Origin: a virus
Length of the DNA stretch: 64,000 nt
IMG/VR virus record: IMGVR_UViG_3300030117_005706
Coordinates: 35,879 to 99,878 of that record
Reading direction: 5' to 3' (one strand)
The notes below the pieces were generated by a model. It was given only the letters and a program-made list of their open reading frames with translations. It made no database searches and was not told the origin of the DNA. Both the position numbers and the translations under genes were made by a program. Shown piece by piece: positions 26,232-55,922 of this stretch (positions within the stretch are counted from its first letter, which is position 1; each line of letters opens with the position of its first letter).

Positions 26232-27014
26232 ATGGACCCGTTTGACGCAGCGTGGTCAATTCTCAAAGGAGACTTTATTCTCGGCGGCCAAGACTATGAT
26301 TTAGGTAACTTCGCTGCTGATTACACTGGTCCCGAATACGAGGGCACTCCCTATGAAACAGCCCTTCCGCCCCTTCAACGATTTGAGCGATACGACCCAA
26401 GCAACATGCACCTCGGCACGAAACGAATGATGGTGCCGCAATCCATGGCAAATATCTCGGAAGGTCAAATGTCTCCACGTGTGACTCGTGTAGTAGATAA
26501 TGTTCCGACACAGCAGCCGTACTTCCGTGGTTCGTCGGTGCCCAGTGTGAGAGATGGAGGCTTAGCAGCCGTCAACGTAGCAAGTGTGTTAGCCGACAAA
26601 AAGGTGAGCAACTTCGATGACTTTGCTCGTTTGGTAGGTAGCACGGCGGCGCATGAGGAAGTGCATCGGCTTATCGAACCTGAAATTCATGAATGGTCAG
26701 TGCAGCAGACAGGCGTGAAGAATCACGACCCGGAAGACTTTGAGCACTCGCTGCCTGCCAATCGTGCATTTCTAACCCTTAATTCATTGGGTCACGAGAA
26801 AGGGGCGTTTGCTCTCACACCCGGCATGACTCAAAAAGAAAAAGACAAATTTTTGAGGCGACGTTATGCCTTTTCACCTTACCTCAACCCCATTGGTCGT
26901 GAAAGGCTCATAAATGAACTTCACCTTGCACGAAGCCCTATGCCACCTGACTCGACTCTGACTTTGGACGAGTTGCGAGAGGCTATCGCCGCCCGAATGC
27001 GGCAGCAACAATAA
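26232..27014 (+). CDS. putative zinc metalloprotease with N-terminal AWxILK tag
   Basis: 260 residues. The N-terminus MDPFDAAWSILK is the tag shared by many proteins in this segment. HEEVH (141-145) in a predicted helix (GSTAAHEEVHRLIEPEIHEW) fits the HExxH zinc-binding and catalytic motif of zincins; downstream acidic/His residues (EIHEW; DFEHSLPANRAF) could supply the third ligand. If real, it may act in virion maturation or after injection. No Shine-Dalgarno is visible. First gene of the rightward region. Confidence 0.6.
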   Translation: MDPFDAAWSILKGDFILGGQDYDLGNFAADYTGPEYEGTPYETALPPLQRFERYDPSNMHLGTKRMMVPQSMANISEGQMSPRVTRVVDNVPTQQPYFRGSSVPSVRDGGLAAVNVASVLADKKVSNFDDFARLVGSTAAHEEVHRLIEPEIHEWSVQQTGVKNHDPEDFEHSLPANRAFLTLNSLGHEKGAFALTPGMTQKEKDKFLRRRYAFSPYLNPIGRERLINELHLARSPMPPDSTLTLDELREAIAARMRQQQ

Positions 27015-30327: not shown

Positions 30328-30645
30328 ATGGACACTCCTTTTGACCACGCATGGGCTATTTTGAAATCAATCCCTCGTGGACCAAACGAGATGCGTGCTT
30401 TAGCGCCGATTCAGGCTGCTCGTGATTTTGTCCACCAACATGGCGACTCAACCGGACCAATGAAGGCACACGCCGACCGTGTGGCAAGGGAATTGCAAGC
30501 ACATCTGTTTGAAGGAGGACCAGCACCTCAACTACCGACCATGGAGCGACAAGCAGGTCGACAAGAATACGGTGGTAACATAGGTGCACCTGAGGGTATG
30601 ACGCCTTCCTATGCCGAAGCGCACATACACGATACCTATGGGTGA
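30328..30645 (+). CDS. tagged small protein ending in YAEAHIHD motif
   Basis: 105 residues. Tag MDTPFDHAWAILKSIPRG at the N-terminus, helical middle, and C-terminal SYAEAHIHDTYG, a peptide that recurs in the 672-residue protein at 41-43 kb. A TATA-like ATTTTTATC is centred 25 nt before the ATG, with no Shine-Dalgarno. Confidence 0.65.
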   Translation: MDTPFDHAWAILKSIPRGPNEMRALAPIQAARDFVHQHGDSTGPMKAHADRVARELQAHLFEGGPAPQLPTMERQAGRQEYGGNIGAPEGMTPSYAEAHIHDTYG

Positions 30646-30651
30646 AAATAT

Positions 30652-30825
30652 ATGACTTGGGCGGAGTACTTGGCTATTGCATTCATCGCTTTTGTAGCGG
30701 GATTTTTGATGATGTGGCTTATCACTGAGGACTTGCGTGACACAACAATTCTTATCACTGAGGAAGAAGTGCAAGAAGATTGCATCGGTGGTTTGCGAAA
30801 TTCCGCTTTCATACAAAAAGATTAA
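30652..30825 (+). CDS. single-pass membrane microprotein
   Basis: 57 residues. The opening MTWAEYLAIAFIAFVAGFLM (1-20) plus MWLI is a transmembrane helix, followed by an acidic tail (ITEEEVQEDC). It sits just after the tagged cluster and before a terminator. A small membrane protein could be a lysis or holin-like factor, but nothing proves this. Confidence 0.6.
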   Translation: MTWAEYLAIAFIAFVAGFLMMWLITEDLRDTTILITEEEVQEDCIGGLRNSAFIQKD

Positions 30826-30833
30826 GTAAATCG

Positions 30834-30873
30834 CCCGAATCAGGATTATCGGGTGAGGGTTGGTTTTTCTTCT
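30834..30873 (+). terminator. stem-loop plus T-rich terminator
   Basis: CCCGA/TCGGG (30834-30853) followed by TTTTTCTTCTT. It closes the tagged-gene cluster before the HMG-CoA lyase gene, which has its own promoter. Confidence 0.65.
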
Positions 30874-30942
30874 TGGGCATCAATTTCAAGACCTATCTCT
30901 TTCATGGTTCTTTCTTCTTTCCAACCCTCATCCACCTGTATC

Positions 30943-30951
30943 GTTAAGTAC
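30943..30951 (+). promoter_or_regulatory. TATA-like box for the HMG-CoA lyase gene
   Basis: GTTAAGTAC is centred 27 nt before the ATG, the spacing expected for a leaderless archaeal transcript. No Shine-Dalgarno is present near the start. Confidence 0.5.
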
Positions 30952-30973
30952 AGTGTATGCCTGTGAATTGAAT

Positions 30974-31813
30974 ATGCGATTGACAGTTTATGAAGTAGGA
31001 CCACGAGACGGATTACAAAATTTACCTGAGTTTGTACCTACGGACGTCAAACGACGACTCATTTCAGAACTGTACAAGTCAGGTATCAAGCACATCGAAG
31101 AGGTTTCGTTCGTACATCCTAAACGTGTACCACAGATGGCCGATGCGGAAGACGTACATGCGTACGGTGCAGCACTGGTCATGAACCCAAAGGGCATGGA
31201 ACGGGCACTAGCGACGGGTGTTAAACTGTTCAACGTGGTGTTTTCTCCATGTGAGACGTTCAACATCAACAACATGGGGCGCACACGCACCGAATTGATA
31301 TACATGTTCAAGAGCATGTTGCAAGATGTACCGAAAGAAAACGTGCGTGTTTACATTTCAATGGCGTTTGGCAGTCCGTATTCAGGCGAAGTCCCACCAT
31401 GCTTACTCAAGCAGTGCGTACGCGATGCTTCGATGCTTGGTTCAACAGTTGTGTTTGCTGACACTGTTGGTACGGGTACACGTGAAGAGATTGCAATCGC
31501 TGCTGAGTATGCACGTGAGTATTCACTTACTTCTGCTTTGCATCTTCATCACAACGAGGGACAAGAAAACGAAGCACTTGAGCGAGTTAAGCATGGCATT
31601 TTTTCAGGTATTGCACAATTTGACTCTAGTATCGGGGGATTAGGTGGATGTCCGTTTGTCGACGGTAGTGGTGGCAACCTCGCTACTGAACGTTTGGTTC
31701 AGTACCTAAACGAGCATGGATTTGACGTGGGCTTTACGGTTGACGATTTGCAGGGTGCACTTGTGTGGGCTGACAAAATCAAAGCCTTGCAAGCACAACC
31801 GACCATCGCGTAG
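30974..31813 (+). CDS. hydroxymethylglutaryl-CoA lyase-like enzyme (auxiliary metabolic gene)
   Basis: 279 residues, TIM-barrel HMGL family. YEVGPRDGLQNL (5-16) is the substrate/metal loop with catalytic Arg-Asp; FVHPKRVPQMADAEDV follows; LHLHHNEGQ supplies the HxH metal ligands; GGLGGCPFVDGSGGNLATE carries the catalytic Cys signature GLGGCP. All key residues are intact, so cleavage of HMG-CoA to acetoacetate and acetyl-CoA is plausible. Known HMG-CoA lyases act in leucine breakdown; in archaea HMG-CoA is also the precursor of isoprenoid lipids. I chose the ATG at the family's normal N-terminus; the longer frame upstream would start in the terminator. Confidence 0.9.
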   Translation: MRLTVYEVGPRDGLQNLPEFVPTDVKRRLISELYKSGIKHIEEVSFVHPKRVPQMADAEDVHAYGAALVMNPKGMERALATGVKLFNVVFSPCETFNINNMGRTRTELIYMFKSMLQDVPKENVRVYISMAFGSPYSGEVPPCLLKQCVRDASMLGSTVVFADTVGTGTREEIAIAAEYAREYSLTSALHLHHNEGQENEALERVKHGIFSGIAQFDSSIGGLGGCPFVDGSGGNLATERLVQYLNEHGFDVGFTVDDLQGALVWADKIKALQAQPTIA

Positions 31814-32008: not shown

Positions 32009-32323
32009 ATGGCGGACGCTTTTGAAGATGCTTGGGAAATTCTCAAGGGTAAGAGGAAGTCGAAGCCGTTTCACGGGTATAATCCAAACAAGCACAGTAA
32101 AAAAGGCGGACTGAACGCCAAAGGTCGTGCTGCTGCAAAGCGCAAAACAGGTGCGAACCTCAAACCACCTGTTACAACAAAGCCAAGTAAACTCAAACCC
32201 GGTGGCAAAAAGGCCAAGCGACGAAAGTCGTTTTGTGCACGAATGGCAGGCGTTAAGGGACCAACCAGCAAGAAAGGCAAATTGACGCCAAAGGGTGCAG
32301 CCCTGAAAAGGTGGAATTGCTGA
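32009..32323 (+). CDS. tagged basic protein, DUF6321-like
   Basis: 104 residues. Tag MADAFEDAWEILKG, then a Lys/Arg-rich body ending in RRKSFCARMAGVKGPTSKKG and a terminal LKRWNC. This matches the basic family I know as DUF6321 in marine phages and large DNA viruses (GLxAKGRAxxxRxTGxNLKxPV, then RRKSFCARMxG). Strong positive charge suggests packaged DNA- or RNA-binding. TATA-like AATAAAATC lies 26 nt before the ATG. Confidence 0.75.
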   Translation: MADAFEDAWEILKGKRKSKPFHGYNPNKHSKKGGLNAKGRAAAKRKTGANLKPPVTTKPSKLKPGGKKAKRRKSFCARMAGVKGPTSKKGKLTPKGAALKRWNC

Positions 32324-35444: not shown

Positions 35445-36005
35445 ATGAGTTCTCAGACAAACGCAATTGACCAAAGCGAAATAAGACTACTTGGATTAAT
35501 CTTGATGCAATCAGCAACCGTCGGCTTGGCCGTCGGTATTTTCGATGCCGAAATGTGGATTGACTTGGAAACATCATCACTCAATGGCTTCACGTATGCT
35601 ATGGGTGCATTTTTTGTGCAAGGCATCGCATATTACATTTTCAAGATGTTTTTCCAACAAGGTATGGACGAAAAAGCACGCACTGCAACTATGGAACGAG
35701 AGCGACGAATACGCTATCGTGGCATGGAAGAGACGTTTGAACGGCGTCGACAAGACATGGAACTGCGTATGCAAGAGGCACAACTTGAGGCTGAACTACG
35801 GTGGATGGAGAGCAACCCCGGTAAAATGCCACCACTGTATCAGGGCAAGGTGTTTGAAGAAACAACAGCCGATTTCAACCCTGAACCGAACCATGAGGCA
35901 TCAGTTGATGAGCCACTCGGACTTGGCGTAACCTTTGGTGATGAGAAGAAAGAAAAGGCAAAGCGTGAGCGTAACCCCGACGGCACATTCAAAAACAAAA
36001 AGTGA
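35445..36005 (+). CDS. membrane protein with cytosolic coiled coil
   Basis: 186 residues. Two hydrophobic segments (GLILMQSATVGLAVGIF, about 17-33; GAFFVQGIAYYIFKMFF, about 53-69) precede a long charged coiled coil (ERERRIRYRGMEETFERRRQ) and a Lys-rich tail. A virion membrane or tail-associated role is possible. No family recognised. Confidence 0.65.
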   Translation: MSSQTNAIDQSEIRLLGLILMQSATVGLAVGIFDAEMWIDLETSSLNGFTYAMGAFFVQGIAYYIFKMFFQQGMDEKARTATMERERRIRYRGMEETFERRRQDMELRMQEAQLEAELRWMESNPGKMPPLYQGKVFEETTADFNPEPNHEASVDEPLGLGVTFGDEKKEKAKRERNPDGTFKNKK

Positions 36006-50510: not shown

Positions 50511-53500
50511 GTGACGATTCCGAACCCCAGTGGTGGAGAGGAACAAGAAGGGGCTGACCCATCGTTTCAGTCTCCTTTTCCATTAGCACAACAGCCTGAC
50601 CCTACTTTTGAAGACGTTGCATCTCTCGGCATTCTTGACCCGTCGACAGACATGCGGGTATCGGAGGGTATGGATAGAGCAGCCCAAACCATGCCTGAAT
50701 CGGTTGAAGGTCGTGCACCCTTCGCTGAGCGCATAAAAGCACACGATAGCATCGTGCATATGGGTTCGCAGTGGCTTCATCAACAGATACGACCACCAAG
50801 CCGAGAACATCAGGGTACAGAAACCGAGCATTTTTTTGAAGACCACTACCACAGTCCTGACTTCAATCCGCTTTGGGGTGACCATGACGAAGATGACGAC
50901 GAATCGCATCCTGAGTTCAGTAACGTGTTGGAGCGTTATTTTCTTGACAATGTTCTCGACCCTGAGGTCGAAAGTGTAGCACAAGAGCATGACAGAAAAG
51001 AGGAGGCTCACTATCGACATCATGGAGATACTGCACTGTACTCACCTTCCATGTACGGTAAGGAACGGGTATCTAATCATGCAATATACGAGATGAATTT
51101 CACCAACTGGGAAGGAAGCCCTGCGGGTATAAAGGCACTCAAAGAAGAGACACTGTTGGGTCGTGAAGGTATTGACTTTGACGAAGCCATGCGAAGACGA
51201 CACATGAATGAAGCGAAAAAGACGTGGAAAGATTTTGACACAAAAGGCGAAGGAACAGACCGCACTGTCGGGCTTGGTGAACTGGATTATTACTTTGGAT
51301 TGGAATGGCTCAGTCCCAAAGACAGGGTTGCGTTTTACGAACACATGATGGAACACGGCTCGATGAACAAGGACAAGGACCGTCTGTTCTTACCTGACTT
51401 GGGCATGAGTGTACCTATGGGTCGGTTCGTAGCAAACTTTCATCAGCGCTATGCTCCAGTTCATGCACACCACACACGTGACGTAGACGCTACAGGTGAA
51501 CCCGGACTGGGTCGTCTTTACACTCCTCCACAGGACGACATCAATCCCGCTGAGATGTACAAAGACCTTGAGGGTACAGAATTGTTTCAGCGACTGAAAG
51601 ATTTCTACGAAGGCATCACAGGTCAAAAGTTGAAGCATTTGGCGAAGGTGGAGAAGGGTCGACTCATACCAAACGATACAAAAACAATCACCCCCAACGA
51701 TTTGTTTGCTATGGCGAACATGGGTCGTGCAGGTCAGAAACTCATGCGGTACGATGACCCATACTATTCACTCAACCGAGGTGACCCTCGTACGATTGCT
51801 TTGCTTGATTCGTTGGAGGGCATCGACGAACTTGTCAAAGACTTCGTAAGTATTCACAGGGATGCTACGAAAATGAAAGGTAACGGTCGTCGGTTGCGAA
51901 ACGCTATTCAGTTTTTTACACAGCCGTTTCTTGCTACCGAAGGTGAGAACGCACACCCTGAGTCGTACATGGACGGTAAGCAAGAATCACTCAGCCATCA
52001 CTTTTCGACACCGTTCTTGGGGAGAGGCGGACTTGGTAAGACGCATGCAACTCGTCTGAACACCATGCATGCAGCGCATCGCTTTTTGCCCGAAGAGGGA
52101 GACGCTATGTCGTTTTTGACAACTGGTGAGCGCTCGCGTATAGGTGGTGACATAGTTGGAGTAGGTGATGCAGGGTCGTTTCGCCCTGAACTGATTGGTC
52201 TTGCCGATGCTGTCGAAAACGTAATGGCACCATTCGGTCCGCCTGAATCGGAACTGACAGCAGTTAAGCGTTATCGTAAAACCGAGAAGGGGCTGTACGA
52301 AGCCAAGCAGGTTGCTGAAATCAGCCCCAGCACGGGTCTGACTGCTCAATTAGGTCCGCACAACCTCAAGCGTACTATAGGTCTAATTTCGGGTGCTAAA
52401 GTCAACAGCACACGGCACGACACGACGACCTCTCCAAAGTATTACAATCAACTGATGGAATCCAAGCATAAGACCACTAGGGATAAAATGACTAATGCCA
52501 TGCTCGATGCTGTTGCTCTAGGATTTGAGCATGTCAACACCATTGGCTCACGCAACGCATTTGGACCAAAGTCGACTGAAACAGGAGTGATGCGTCGTGA
52601 CCAAGATGCTGCTTTGCACCACCATCAGTTGTCCGGAATGATTGGTGCGATACATCCACCTGCCAACCCTTCGTTCCAAGAGGATGTTCATCATCCTCAC
52701 AGCATACACCCTGATACAGAGATGGCTGCGGACCGTGACGAACTCGGAATGTTGCAGGGGATTACGCAAGATAATTATGATAACGATTTGAAAGAACTTC
52801 AAGCGCTACGCGAGAACGCACACGAGAAGCGCATGTTTCTTAGCAGTCTGAGAGACAATCCACCAAAGCCACCTGCTGTTCTTGGTATGAATGATGAATC
52901 GAGGGCGTGGTTCTTAGCCTCACAAGAACACGAAAAAAGAATCAAGGACGCCGAACGAGATGCAGCGTTGGCCGAGGGTAAGGTCGGTGCACACGTAAAT
53001 ACGTTTAGACCAAGAATGTTGGAATACAGCCAAGCCGAGGATGAACTCAACGCACTCATCGAACAACAAGCGCGTGGTATGCCTGTATCAGAAGACGAAA
53101 TCAACGAAGCGCACGAGCGCTTGGAGGCTGTTGAGCAAGAACACTATGCGCCCATCGAGGGAGATTATCAAAGGCATTTGCGGGATAAGGGAAGGACATT
53201 ACAAAACAAGGTGCGAAGTCACATCAACGCAATTGAGAACGTAGCCAAGCAAGTGCTCGCTGAGGCTGAACAACAGGGCTTTGATTTGTTTTCGATGGCA
53301 CCACCTGACACTGTTATGGCATGGGCTATGAAAACAGCGAACGACATTCTTGCTACTCAAGACCAAGATTTTCACGGACAAGAAGCATTGTCAGCGGGAG
53401 TGGTACGTGAGAAAACGCACGTAAGGCACGACGCTATACAAGACCAAGTCAAAGCCTTCATGGACACGGATGATGCTCACGAAATCGGGCCAAACGAAAA

Positions 53501-55922
53501 CGTAGACAAGGCTACAGCAAGAGTGTTTGGCGAAGAAGCATCACCTTACCAAAAACGAATGTTAAGAGATATTATCAATCAAGCCAGTAACCAAGGCTCG
53601 CCTGTACGAATTGCCACGGTACGAGACCTCTTAGGAAAAATACCGTTCCCTACTGGTGCATCATTCAACATTTCTGAATCACTGCCCGACGATTTTCACG
53701 CACTTCTTGACTATCCTCACGACAGGGAAGGTAACTTTGAGTTGGGAACTGTCCGAGCACATCCGAACAGTAGGAATAAATCAGAACTCAAAGCACATCC
53801 GGCTATGCGCGCAGCGTCAGCGGTATCGAGAATGCTTGAGACATTGTCGGACCGAGGTCTGAACATTGAGGTACCAAATCAAAAGAAGAAAGGTCAATTA
53901 AATGCACATTATACTGGTAGCAAAGTCAATGACCCGCTATCACGACCGCACGTCATCCGTGAAAGTAAGGCTCATCGACTTACGAATTTGCTTCACGGGA
54001 TTGTAGTCGATGACGGCTCAGTTGAGTACGACCCAACGCATGAAGCCTCCAAAGAAAGGTTTGCACTTACGTCAAAGCCGATTGGCCGTGCCTCACATCC
54101 TGACACAGAAACATCCGTCATGTCGATTTACAACTCAGATGGGTTGCGTTCTCACAAAGGGCACATGCACGAAGTTCCGTTCCGCATGGATATAAGAGAT
54201 GGTCGTATGCAGTTTCGACCACAAACGCCAAAGAAAATGCGATTGGTCACGCCCATGGGAGGTTCAGTGAGAAGAGTCTTACCTCAACAATATCATGGTC
54301 ACTTTGGTGCACACAACGATGACCGTTCGGTTGAGCGACAGCCGAATGCCACACGCGCTAACCAAGCCCAAACGACTTTGAGTGACAACCTACTGGACAT
54401 ATCGACGAAGATGGATGGACCTGCATTGTTGGCTTCGCTGACCAACCCTGATTTTATCCGTAAGGATATGCCTGAGGGCTTGCCGTCACTGCAACCGATG
54501 CATCGCATCTTTGATGTCGATGACCTTGAACACCTGCGTGGATTCACAGGCGACTGGGTCGTCAGCGACTATCCTGAGGGCGAGCGAATGTTCGTCACCA
54601 AGAAGGACGACGATGTTGAAAGTAAGGGTTCACTTACTGATGAAGAGAAGAAAGCGTTCAAGCAGGTATCTGACAAGGACTTCTTGGTTGACGTTATACG
54701 ACGTGAAAGTGGGTTGTACATCTTTGAGGTCATAGAGTACGATGGCAAAGAGGTTCACGATATACCAATTCAAGACCGCATCAAGTTGTTGCGTGGTATG
54801 CTGCAAAGCGTTGAAGGTGTCGAAGCCCCAAGCGCATCTGACACGAAGTTAACTGATGATGTTGGACTGGCTGACGCTATCAAGAACATTGAGAGCGACC
54901 GTATCTTGTTGCGTGACGCAAAGTCCACATACATGAAAGGCGAGGCACGTCATCCGAAGTGGGTCATGTATCAGAAAGGCAACGACGTCACACTCATGGT
55001 GCTTGAGCGACGAGGCGAATCACCGTACACGTATCGACTTGGCACAGGTCCAATTATTCATGGAGAGGACTTAGGTGACCGCGCAGTCAAGATTGAGGAT
55101 GACATTTACATGGACATCGGCGCATCGTTCAATGCTCCTGAAAAGTATGAGGTCGGTGACTACGTCAAGGTCAACGTCACAAGCGTGACAGAAGGTGAAG
55201 CATCTGAGAATCAAAAGGTGTATACCGTTCACGCACCACGCATCGAGGGTGAGGCTGAGGGCGAGCCACTGGTCAGCACAGAGAGCCTTGCTATGTTAGC
55301 AAAGGCTGACATGGCGCAAAGCCCACTCAACATCTATAGAAGCGACCGTCACATTCGTGTATCGTTTGAAGCAGGCGATGTTCTGTACAAAGCGACCACA
55401 CGTGGCTCGTACTGGACTGTGCACACACCTGTAGCCGATAACGACTATCTAATTCGTTTGTCTGAGAGCCAACGACCGTTTTGGTCACCAGTTGCTGGTG
55501 TGATGCTTAAGGGCGACTTTTCTATAGAAGAACGAGAGGACAAGGCTGAGGTCCACGAAAGCAAAGGCGACGGTAAACCACTCATTCCGCCAAGAAAGAT
55601 TCAAGATACGAATAGGTGGGACAAAGAGAAGAACAAGGTTATGAAGAAGGGCGTCGAACTTCTTGAGCGACTGTTGGCGAAAAGCGGTGTAGGTCAAGTG
55701 GGTACCAGTATGTCAGGACCCAAAGGACTCGGCATAGATTATGGCACACCAATCCAATCACCAACAGGTCCAACAAACCCTGACGATGCAAAAACCATGC
55801 CTGACTACGATGTGCGTGATATTGAGCGTGACAGGAAAGATGAAGAAGAAGAATCGAAGGACGTCGAGGAAGTTGATAGTAAGTTGGAACTTACAGAAGA
55901 TAAGGCTGTCTACCATATCTGA
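50511..55922 (+). CDS. giant virion-region protein (1803 aa) with degenerate ligase-like domain
   Basis: 1803 residues, GTG start. The first 1300 residues are hydrophilic, His/Asp/Glu-rich helices with no recognised domain. From about 1330 the order of an ATP-dependent ligase core appears: WVVSDYPEGERMFVTKK (motif I position, but Lys and Asp of KxDG are missing), LYIFEVIEYDGKEVHDIPIQ with DRIKLLRGML (motif III/IIIa-like), ILLRDAKSTYMKGEARHPKW with VMYQ (motif IV/V-like), and an OB-fold-like YEVGDYVKVNVTSV. I infer a catalytically dead nucleotidyltransferase-ligase fold used structurally or for DNA binding. Likely an internal or injected virion protein because of its size and place just before the protease. 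Confidence 0.7.
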   Translation: MTIPNPSGGEEQEGADPSFQSPFPLAQQPDPTFEDVASLGILDPSTDMRVSEGMDRAAQTMPESVEGRAPFAERIKAHDSIVHMGSQWLHQQIRPPSREHQGTETEHFFEDHYHSPDFNPLWGDHDEDDDESHPEFSNVLERYFLDNVLDPEVESVAQEHDRKEEAHYRHHGDTALYSPSMYGKERVSNHAIYEMNFTNWEGSPAGIKALKEETLLGREGIDFDEAMRRRHMNEAKKTWKDFDTKGEGTDRTVGLGELDYYFGLEWLSPKDRVAFYEHMMEHGSMNKDKDRLFLPDLGMSVPMGRFVANFHQRYAPVHAHHTRDVDATGEPGLGRLYTPPQDDINPAEMYKDLEGTELFQRLKDFYEGITGQKLKHLAKVEKGRLIPNDTKTITPNDLFAMANMGRAGQKLMRYDDPYYSLNRGDPRTIALLDSLEGIDELVKDFVSIHRDATKMKGNGRRLRNAIQFFTQPFLATEGENAHPESYMDGKQESLSHHFSTPFLGRGGLGKTHATRLNTMHAAHRFLPEEGDAMSFLTTGERSRIGGDIVGVGDAGSFRPELIGLADAVENVMAPFGPPESELTAVKRYRKTEKGLYEAKQVAEISPSTGLTAQLGPHNLKRTIGLISGAKVNSTRHDTTTSPKYYNQLMESKHKTTRDKMTNAMLDAVALGFEHVNTIGSRNAFGPKSTETGVMRRDQDAALHHHQLSGMIGAIHPPANPSFQEDVHHPHSIHPDTEMAADRDELGMLQGITQDNYDNDLKELQALRENAHEKRMFLSSLRDNPPKPPAVLGMNDESRAWFLASQEHEKRIKDAERDAALAEGKVGAHVNTFRPRMLEYSQAEDELNALIEQQARGMPVSEDEINEAHERLEAVEQEHYAPIEGDYQRHLRDKGRTLQNKVRSHINAIENVAKQVLAEAEQQGFDLFSMAPPDTVMAWAMKTANDILATQDQDFHGQEALSAGVVREKTHVRHDAIQDQVKAFMDTDDAHEIGPNENVDKATARVFGEEASPYQKRMLRDIINQASNQGSPVRIATVRDLLGKIPFPTGASFNISESLPDDFHALLDYPHDREGNFELGTVRAHPNSRNKSELKAHPAMRAASAVSRMLETLSDRGLNIEVPNQKKKGQLNAHYTGSKVNDPLSRPHVIRESKAHRLTNLLHGIVVDDGSVEYDPTHEASKERFALTSKPIGRASHPDTETSVMSIYNSDGLRSHKGHMHEVPFRMDIRDGRMQFRPQTPKKMRLVTPMGGSVRRVLPQQYHGHFGAHNDDRSVERQPNATRANQAQTTLSDNLLDISTKMDGPALLASLTNPDFIRKDMPEGLPSLQPMHRIFDVDDLEHLRGFTGDWVVSDYPEGERMFVTKKDDDVESKGSLTDEEKKAFKQVSDKDFLVDVIRRESGLYIFEVIEYDGKEVHDIPIQDRIKLLRGMLQSVEGVEAPSASDTKLTDDVGLADAIKNIESDRILLRDAKSTYMKGEARHPKWVMYQKGNDVTLMVLERRGESPYTYRLGTGPIIHGEDLGDRAVKIEDDIYMDIGASFNAPEKYEVGDYVKVNVTSVTEGEASENQKVYTVHAPRIEGEAEGEPLVSTESLAMLAKADMAQSPLNIYRSDRHIRVSFEAGDVLYKATTRGSYWTVHTPVADNDYLIRLSESQRPFWSPVAGVMLKGDFSIEEREDKAEVHESKGDGKPLIPPRKIQDTNRWDKEKNKVMKKGVELLERLLAKSGVGQVGTSMSGPKGLGIDYGTPIQSPTGPTNPDDAKTMPDYDVRDIERDRKDEEEESKDVEEVDSKLELTEDKAVYHI

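Follow-up and report, generated by a model that had tools for sequence, protein, structure and literature searches.

Why a virus of archaea should encode HMG-CoA lyase, and what such an enzyme could do in an infected cell, is the question raised by this locus. The window, meaning the whole stretch of DNA analysed, is 64,000 nucleotides long (positions 35,879 to 99,878 of IMG/VR record IMGVR_UViG_3300030117_005706). The lyase gene and its immediate surroundings are as follows.

30328..30645, + strand: upstream neighbour of the cassette, 105 aa, with a DxAWxILK N-terminal tag
30652..30825, + strand: small single-helix membrane protein, 57 aa, with a G-[LM]-R motif near the C terminus
30826..30973, + strand: intergenic gap between small protein and lyase, 148 bp, read from sequence
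30974..31813, + strand: HMG-CoA lyase gene, 279 aa, catalytic and metal-binding residues all present
32009..32323, + strand: downstream neighbour, 104 aa, carrying the tag; its family occurs near the lyase in 15 loci

Identity of the lyase

An earlier note, made from the window alone, had called this gene a full-length HMG-CoA lyase with its GPRDGLQ, HxH and GLGGCP signatures intact, and our data agree on every point. The open reading frame at 30974-31813 (+) translates to a complete protein of 279 aa with no internal stop, in which GPRDGLQ occupies residues 9-15, HLH residues 190-192 and GLGGCP residues 222-227. The program-made frame opens at a TTG at 30860, but translation probably begins at the ATG at 30974, where the family alignment also starts. 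The protein matches the Pfam HMGL-like family (1.2e-18), and its best NCBIfam model is PRK05692, HMG-CoA lyase (7e-62), where its score of 209 bits falls short of a 246-bit cut-off that is an annotation threshold, neither mechanistic nor defining for HMG-CoA lyase. Searching the PDB by sequence returned HMG-CoA lyases only (best 1.5e-42). The AlphaFold model, built from viral and bacterial relatives, is of high confidence (mean pLDDT 94.1, pTM 0.92), and its first 14 PDB structure matches are all HMG-CoA lyases (TM 0.83-0.88). Isopropylmalate synthase, homocitrate synthase and other DRE-TIM enzymes share the TIM-barrel superfamily of the window lyase but are more distant (TM about 0.63-0.74), isopropylmalate synthase-like enzymes ranking after the lyases at TM 0.74 or less, and when bacterial genomes were scored with a profile of the viral copies, HMG-CoA lyases reached 180-232 bits whereas no other DRE-TIM enzyme exceeded 38 bits. 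By sequence, profile and structure, the nearest family of the HMGL-like domain is thus HMG-CoA lyase.

The active site is conserved throughout the viral copies, with E7, R11, D12, Q15, E42, D163, H190, H192, GLGGCP, C226 and N235 unchanged in those that cover them (80-81 of 81). The established metal ligands and catalytic residues of human HMG-CoA lyase (Asp42, His233, His235, Asn275, Arg41, Glu72, Asp204 and Cys266) all have aligned counterparts in the window lyase, and the misaligned catalytic residues that the earlier note had named as grounds against its own reading were not seen. Close pairs of viral lyases give dN/dS values of 0.02-0.16 (Nei-Gojobori). Judged from these comparisons of sequence, the viral lyase is an enzyme in use and under strong purifying selection rather than a decaying insert, and the window protein very probably converts HMG-CoA to acetyl-CoA and acetoacetate.

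The viral protein resembles the cellular lyases of human (2cw6), Bacillus subtilis (1ydo), Brucella (1ydn) and Pseudomonas (2ftp) in fold (TM up to 0.88), in catalytic residues and in sequence (about 32-38% identity), but differs from them in a shorter segment near residue 65, in forming a separate clade, and in the loop after HxH, which reads HLHHNEGQENEA where cellular enzymes have HxHDTxGQ, so that its substrate range could differ. The only other viral structure to match over the full length (TM 0.88) is an HMGL-like protein of Klosneuvirus KNV1 (BFVD A0A1V0SKU2), a giant virus of eukaryotes, which is 29% identical to the window lyase.

The virus and the distribution of the gene

The source record is 103,328 bp long, within the 90-110 kb range of Magrovirales genomes, and its two ends share a 645-bp repeat, 96% identical, so that the genome is probably nearly complete and terminally redundant. 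It encodes a thermosome-type chaperonin, a B-family polymerase, an ERCC4 nuclease, an SNF2 helicase and a clamp-loader-like AAA protein, the last called from a general AAA match, together with virion genes for a terminase, a portal-like protein, a prohead protease and a phrog_24667 capsid protein. The Magrovirales set of family B polymerase, clamp loader, chaperonin and HK97-type capsid genes is therefore present; MCM helicase and archaeo-eukaryotic primase had no Pfam match among the proteins scanned, a search that divergent copies could escape. Hallmark genes and ORF strands show the replication gene cluster running one way and the virion gene cluster the other, with the lyase on the virion-gene strand. 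Among 50,697 phage records, 11 match the capsid protein; all ten of the matches listed come from tailed viruses that infect Haloarcula or methanogen-related archaea, with haloarchaeal tailed viruses nearest, in agreement with the relationship of magroviruses to Druskaviridae given in the ICTV profile (PMC10768690). That this is an archaeal virus, as first suggested from the window alone, is thus borne out by the chaperonin, polymerase and nuclease and by the capsid matches. On its gene content the record belongs to the Magrovirales, archaeal tailed viruses of the class Caudoviricetes, and the literature on the magrovirus group makes Poseidoniales the probable host. Two long ORFs in this virus are also of note: a single ORF of 5307 aa at L011:3953-19876 (+), in the virion-gene direction, is possibly a giant tail or fibre protein, and an ORF of 1803 aa between the portal-like and protease genes (window 50511-55922, +) has a weak DNA-ligase-domain match (2.5e-4) that is below the cut-off and would be an odd location for a ligase.

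A protein-alignment scan of viral contigs found the lyase in at least 82 others, and the best 80 of the 82 confirmed relatives were kept for locus comparison. An HMGL-like gene is present in 10 of 24 long records whose capsid protein is closely related, and in 7 of the 10 MCP-related records of at least 79 kb; the three large records that do without it indicate that the gene is not essential to the virus group. In the set checked, every record of 66 kb or more with an HMGL gene also has a chaperonin-family match. By these sequence criteria the lyase is an auxiliary metabolic gene, a cell-type enzyme kept under selection and dispensable for replication and the virion, its dispensability following from its patchy presence among related records. 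Such a gene is not new. A magrovirus HMG-CoA lyase is listed by Xu et al. 2023 (PMC10160649), and the ICTV profile of Aoguangviridae names the enzyme as a host-modulating function (PMC10768690); both thus treat the enzyme seen here, in viruses of this kind, as auxiliary or host-modulating. The suggestion of an unusual viral control point is in this respect not supported, the lyase being common in magroviruses and already in print.

In a tree of viral and bacterial sequences, a single branch separates all the viral lyases from every bacterial one sampled (n=40; SH-aLRT 76, weak), and the main group of 37 is supported at SH-aLRT 97. A scan of genome contigs gave best bacterial identities to the viral lyase of 34-41%, and the best 80 matches listed were all bacterial. 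The phylogeny proposed earlier, as a way to tell a host from a bacterial derivation and to detect another enzyme activity, is in this way answered in part: the profile and structure comparisons do not place the lyase with another HMGL-like activity, and within the viral and bacterial tree it has no sampled bacterial donor. Four records (L079, L080, L082 and L083) form a second, deeper group of viral lyases that are 38-42% identical to that of the window and have different neighbours; chaperonin matches are very strong in three of the four, and the group possibly represents another lineage of archaeal viruses. Three matches in the annotated phage collection were unlike the magrovirus loci and were set aside; the lyase match in Acinetobacter phage MD-2021a was discarded for its bacterial metabolic gene neighbours, and that in MT836185 as lying in an unverified record without annotation.

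The lyase unit and its proposed role

In 46 of 81 loci, a small protein predicted to have one membrane helix, 51-58 aa long in most, is encoded directly upstream of the lyase. The stop codon of the small gene overlaps the lyase start by 4 bases in 40 of these 46 paired loci, and in most overlapping loci its last codons supply a GGAGG-like ribosome site, an arrangement which suggests that the two proteins are probably co-translated in these relatives and which partly explains the conserved C-terminal codons of the small protein. Purifying selection acts along its length (dN/dS 0.16 or less in the pairs tested; 0.11-0.15 in the subgroup of the window copy). The window copy matches the family profile, of which it is itself a member, at E 1e-19, and AlphaFold gives it a high-confidence helix at residues 3-24 and a poorly defined tail; its gene lies 148 bp from the lyase, with no 4-base overlap. 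When viral contigs were searched with one copy, all 13 strong matches fell in lyase-bearing contigs, and six weak matches reached 55-65% over 23-29 residues. The small protein may hold the lyase at the membrane or regulate it from there. One locus (L074) of the group lacking a partner gene directly upstream has a weak small-protein match (E 5e-4) about 4.6 kb downstream of the lyase start.

Many of the relatives also carry a conserved promoter-like element. Upstream of the lyase, at no more than 330 bp, 44 of 80 loci have a site like AAGTTTAATTTCTACACC with at most 3 mismatches; this count partly reflects the shared ancestry of the viruses, and only four such sites occur in the remaining 2.6 million positions of those loci. 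The element is 18 bp long and near-invariant. The start codon that opens the unit, be it that of the small gene or of the lyase, follows about 15-20 nt after it, a position that fits a leaderless archaeal promoter, which is the role we infer for it. Across all viral contigs the pattern had 61 matches, of which 15 precede a lyase and 46, rejected here, look like chance occurrences in AT-rich or coding DNA. The translated motif KFNFYTA was considered as an N-terminal extension of the small protein, and is more likely non-coding DNA before the real start. The AAGTTTAATTTCTACACC-like element was not found upstream of the lyase in the window and its two nearest relatives, which have a different short palindrome before the gene. 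The window gap contains CTGTATCGTTAAGTACAG (30936-30953), about 30 nt before the lyase ATG, a possible leaderless archaeal promoter judging by its letters. A scan around the window lyase for terminators and sigma-70 promoters gave no signal above chance, and hairpin formation in the 148-bp gap was no better than in shuffles (z -0.59). Of the terminator-promoter boundary once proposed for this gene, the non-coding gap, together with the element in many relatives, keeps a boundary plausible, with the terminator and the promoter of the window gene both putative.

Judged by the flanking gene clusters, the lyase occupies four kinds of genomic site, and the small protein accompanies it at three of the four. 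When the sites are mapped on the viral tree, five changes are required where three would be the minimum, and three of the four site labels must each involve more than one change if the well-supported branches are respected. On this mapping, the lyase unit has changed genomic site repeatedly. The check proposed earlier, whether other members of the group have the gene at the same locus, thus comes out positive for the gene, which however lies at four different sites instead of one. In their available text, the published magrovirus accounts, which we compared by description, make no mention of a small partner, a promoter-like element or relocation; these features of the cassette appear to be new, as we found no report of them, and an earlier mention of the small partner in primary papers is possible.

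Archaea make their isoprenoid membrane lipids through HMG-CoA. Thiolase, HMG-CoA reductase, enoyl-CoA hydratase and HMG-CoA synthase were not found in the 24 HMGL-bearing virus records, that of the window included, nor did Pfam scans of the window's virus find any of these mevalonate- or leucine-route partners; substrate supply and product use must therefore be the host's, and the mevalonate branch is the surest source of substrate. The reading that we favour, and to which we give an even chance, is that the lyase diverts HMG-CoA from mevalonate with recovery of acetyl-CoA. The enzyme would be produced when a marine archaeon, probably one of the Poseidoniales, is infected, and would cleave host HMG-CoA, drawn most likely from the mevalonate pathway, to acetyl-CoA and acetoacetate, stopping new host investment in lipid and making acetyl-CoA available again for the energy and biosynthesis that virus production needs. 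In many of the relatives it would probably be co-translated with the small membrane protein and possibly be membrane-held or -regulated. More tentatively, the pair may form a two-gene device in which the small protein anchors or controls the lyase, a unit-specific promoter drives it, isoprenoid supply is shut off at HMG-CoA and the whole moves between sites as a cassette. A viral lyase so widespread and strongly selected may mark a control point specific to archaeal membrane chemistry, and with its membrane partner and a promoter-like element specific to the unit, what was a brief annotation becomes a system open to testing.

The same chemistry could instead complete or boost leucine catabolism in a proteolytic host, yielding acetyl-CoA for the virus with mevalonate not the main target. 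Poseidoniales are described as proteolytic degraders of amino acids, without amino-acid biosynthesis genes (PMC6461757), which keeps the leucine route in play, and the published annotation puts the magrovirus enzyme in leucine degradation (PMC10160649); the enoyl-CoA hydratase family, a step of that route, is however absent from the 24 HMGL-bearing records, and we consider leucine use possible, if somewhat unlikely. A lyase of this family acting on another natural substrate, such as a different 3-hydroxy-3-methyl acyl-CoA, would account for the score below the PRK05692 cut-off, the virus-specific loop and the distinct viral clade, and bacterial genomes with several HMGL paralogues under the viral profile show that the family does diversify. 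The retention of HMG-CoA lyase catalytic residues in the viral copies, and the identity of the model's 14 best PDB matches, make such a change of substrate improbable.

The tight pairing with a membrane protein, in more than half of the loci, might also suggest that enzymatic use was lost and that the protein became a structural or regulatory part. However, the active site is invariant across copies down to 38% identical, and where the small protein is missing the lyase is no less intact at catalytic positions, leaving this a very slim prospect. Least credible of all is misassembly of host or bacterial DNA into the virus record, for which we found no evidence, since the lyase lies amid viral genes here and in many independent assemblies.

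A peptide tag in neighbouring genes

Both flanking neighbours of the cassette carry a peptide, P-[FILM]-[DE]-x-A-W-x-[ILV]-[LA]-K, that recurs in otherwise unlike proteins, mostly at residues 5-10; the lyase and its small partner are without it. There are 145 matches in 793 ORFs of the viral loci, where shuffled proteins would give 0.3, and the N-terminal cases, which fall in 47 separate sequence clusters, are all on the lyase (virion-gene) strand (102 of 102). The peptide is possibly a capsid- or assembly-targeting signal. Tagged ORFs on the + strand of the window are those at 26232, 27040, 27305, 28725, 29464, 30328, 32009, 33258, 34341 and 45516.
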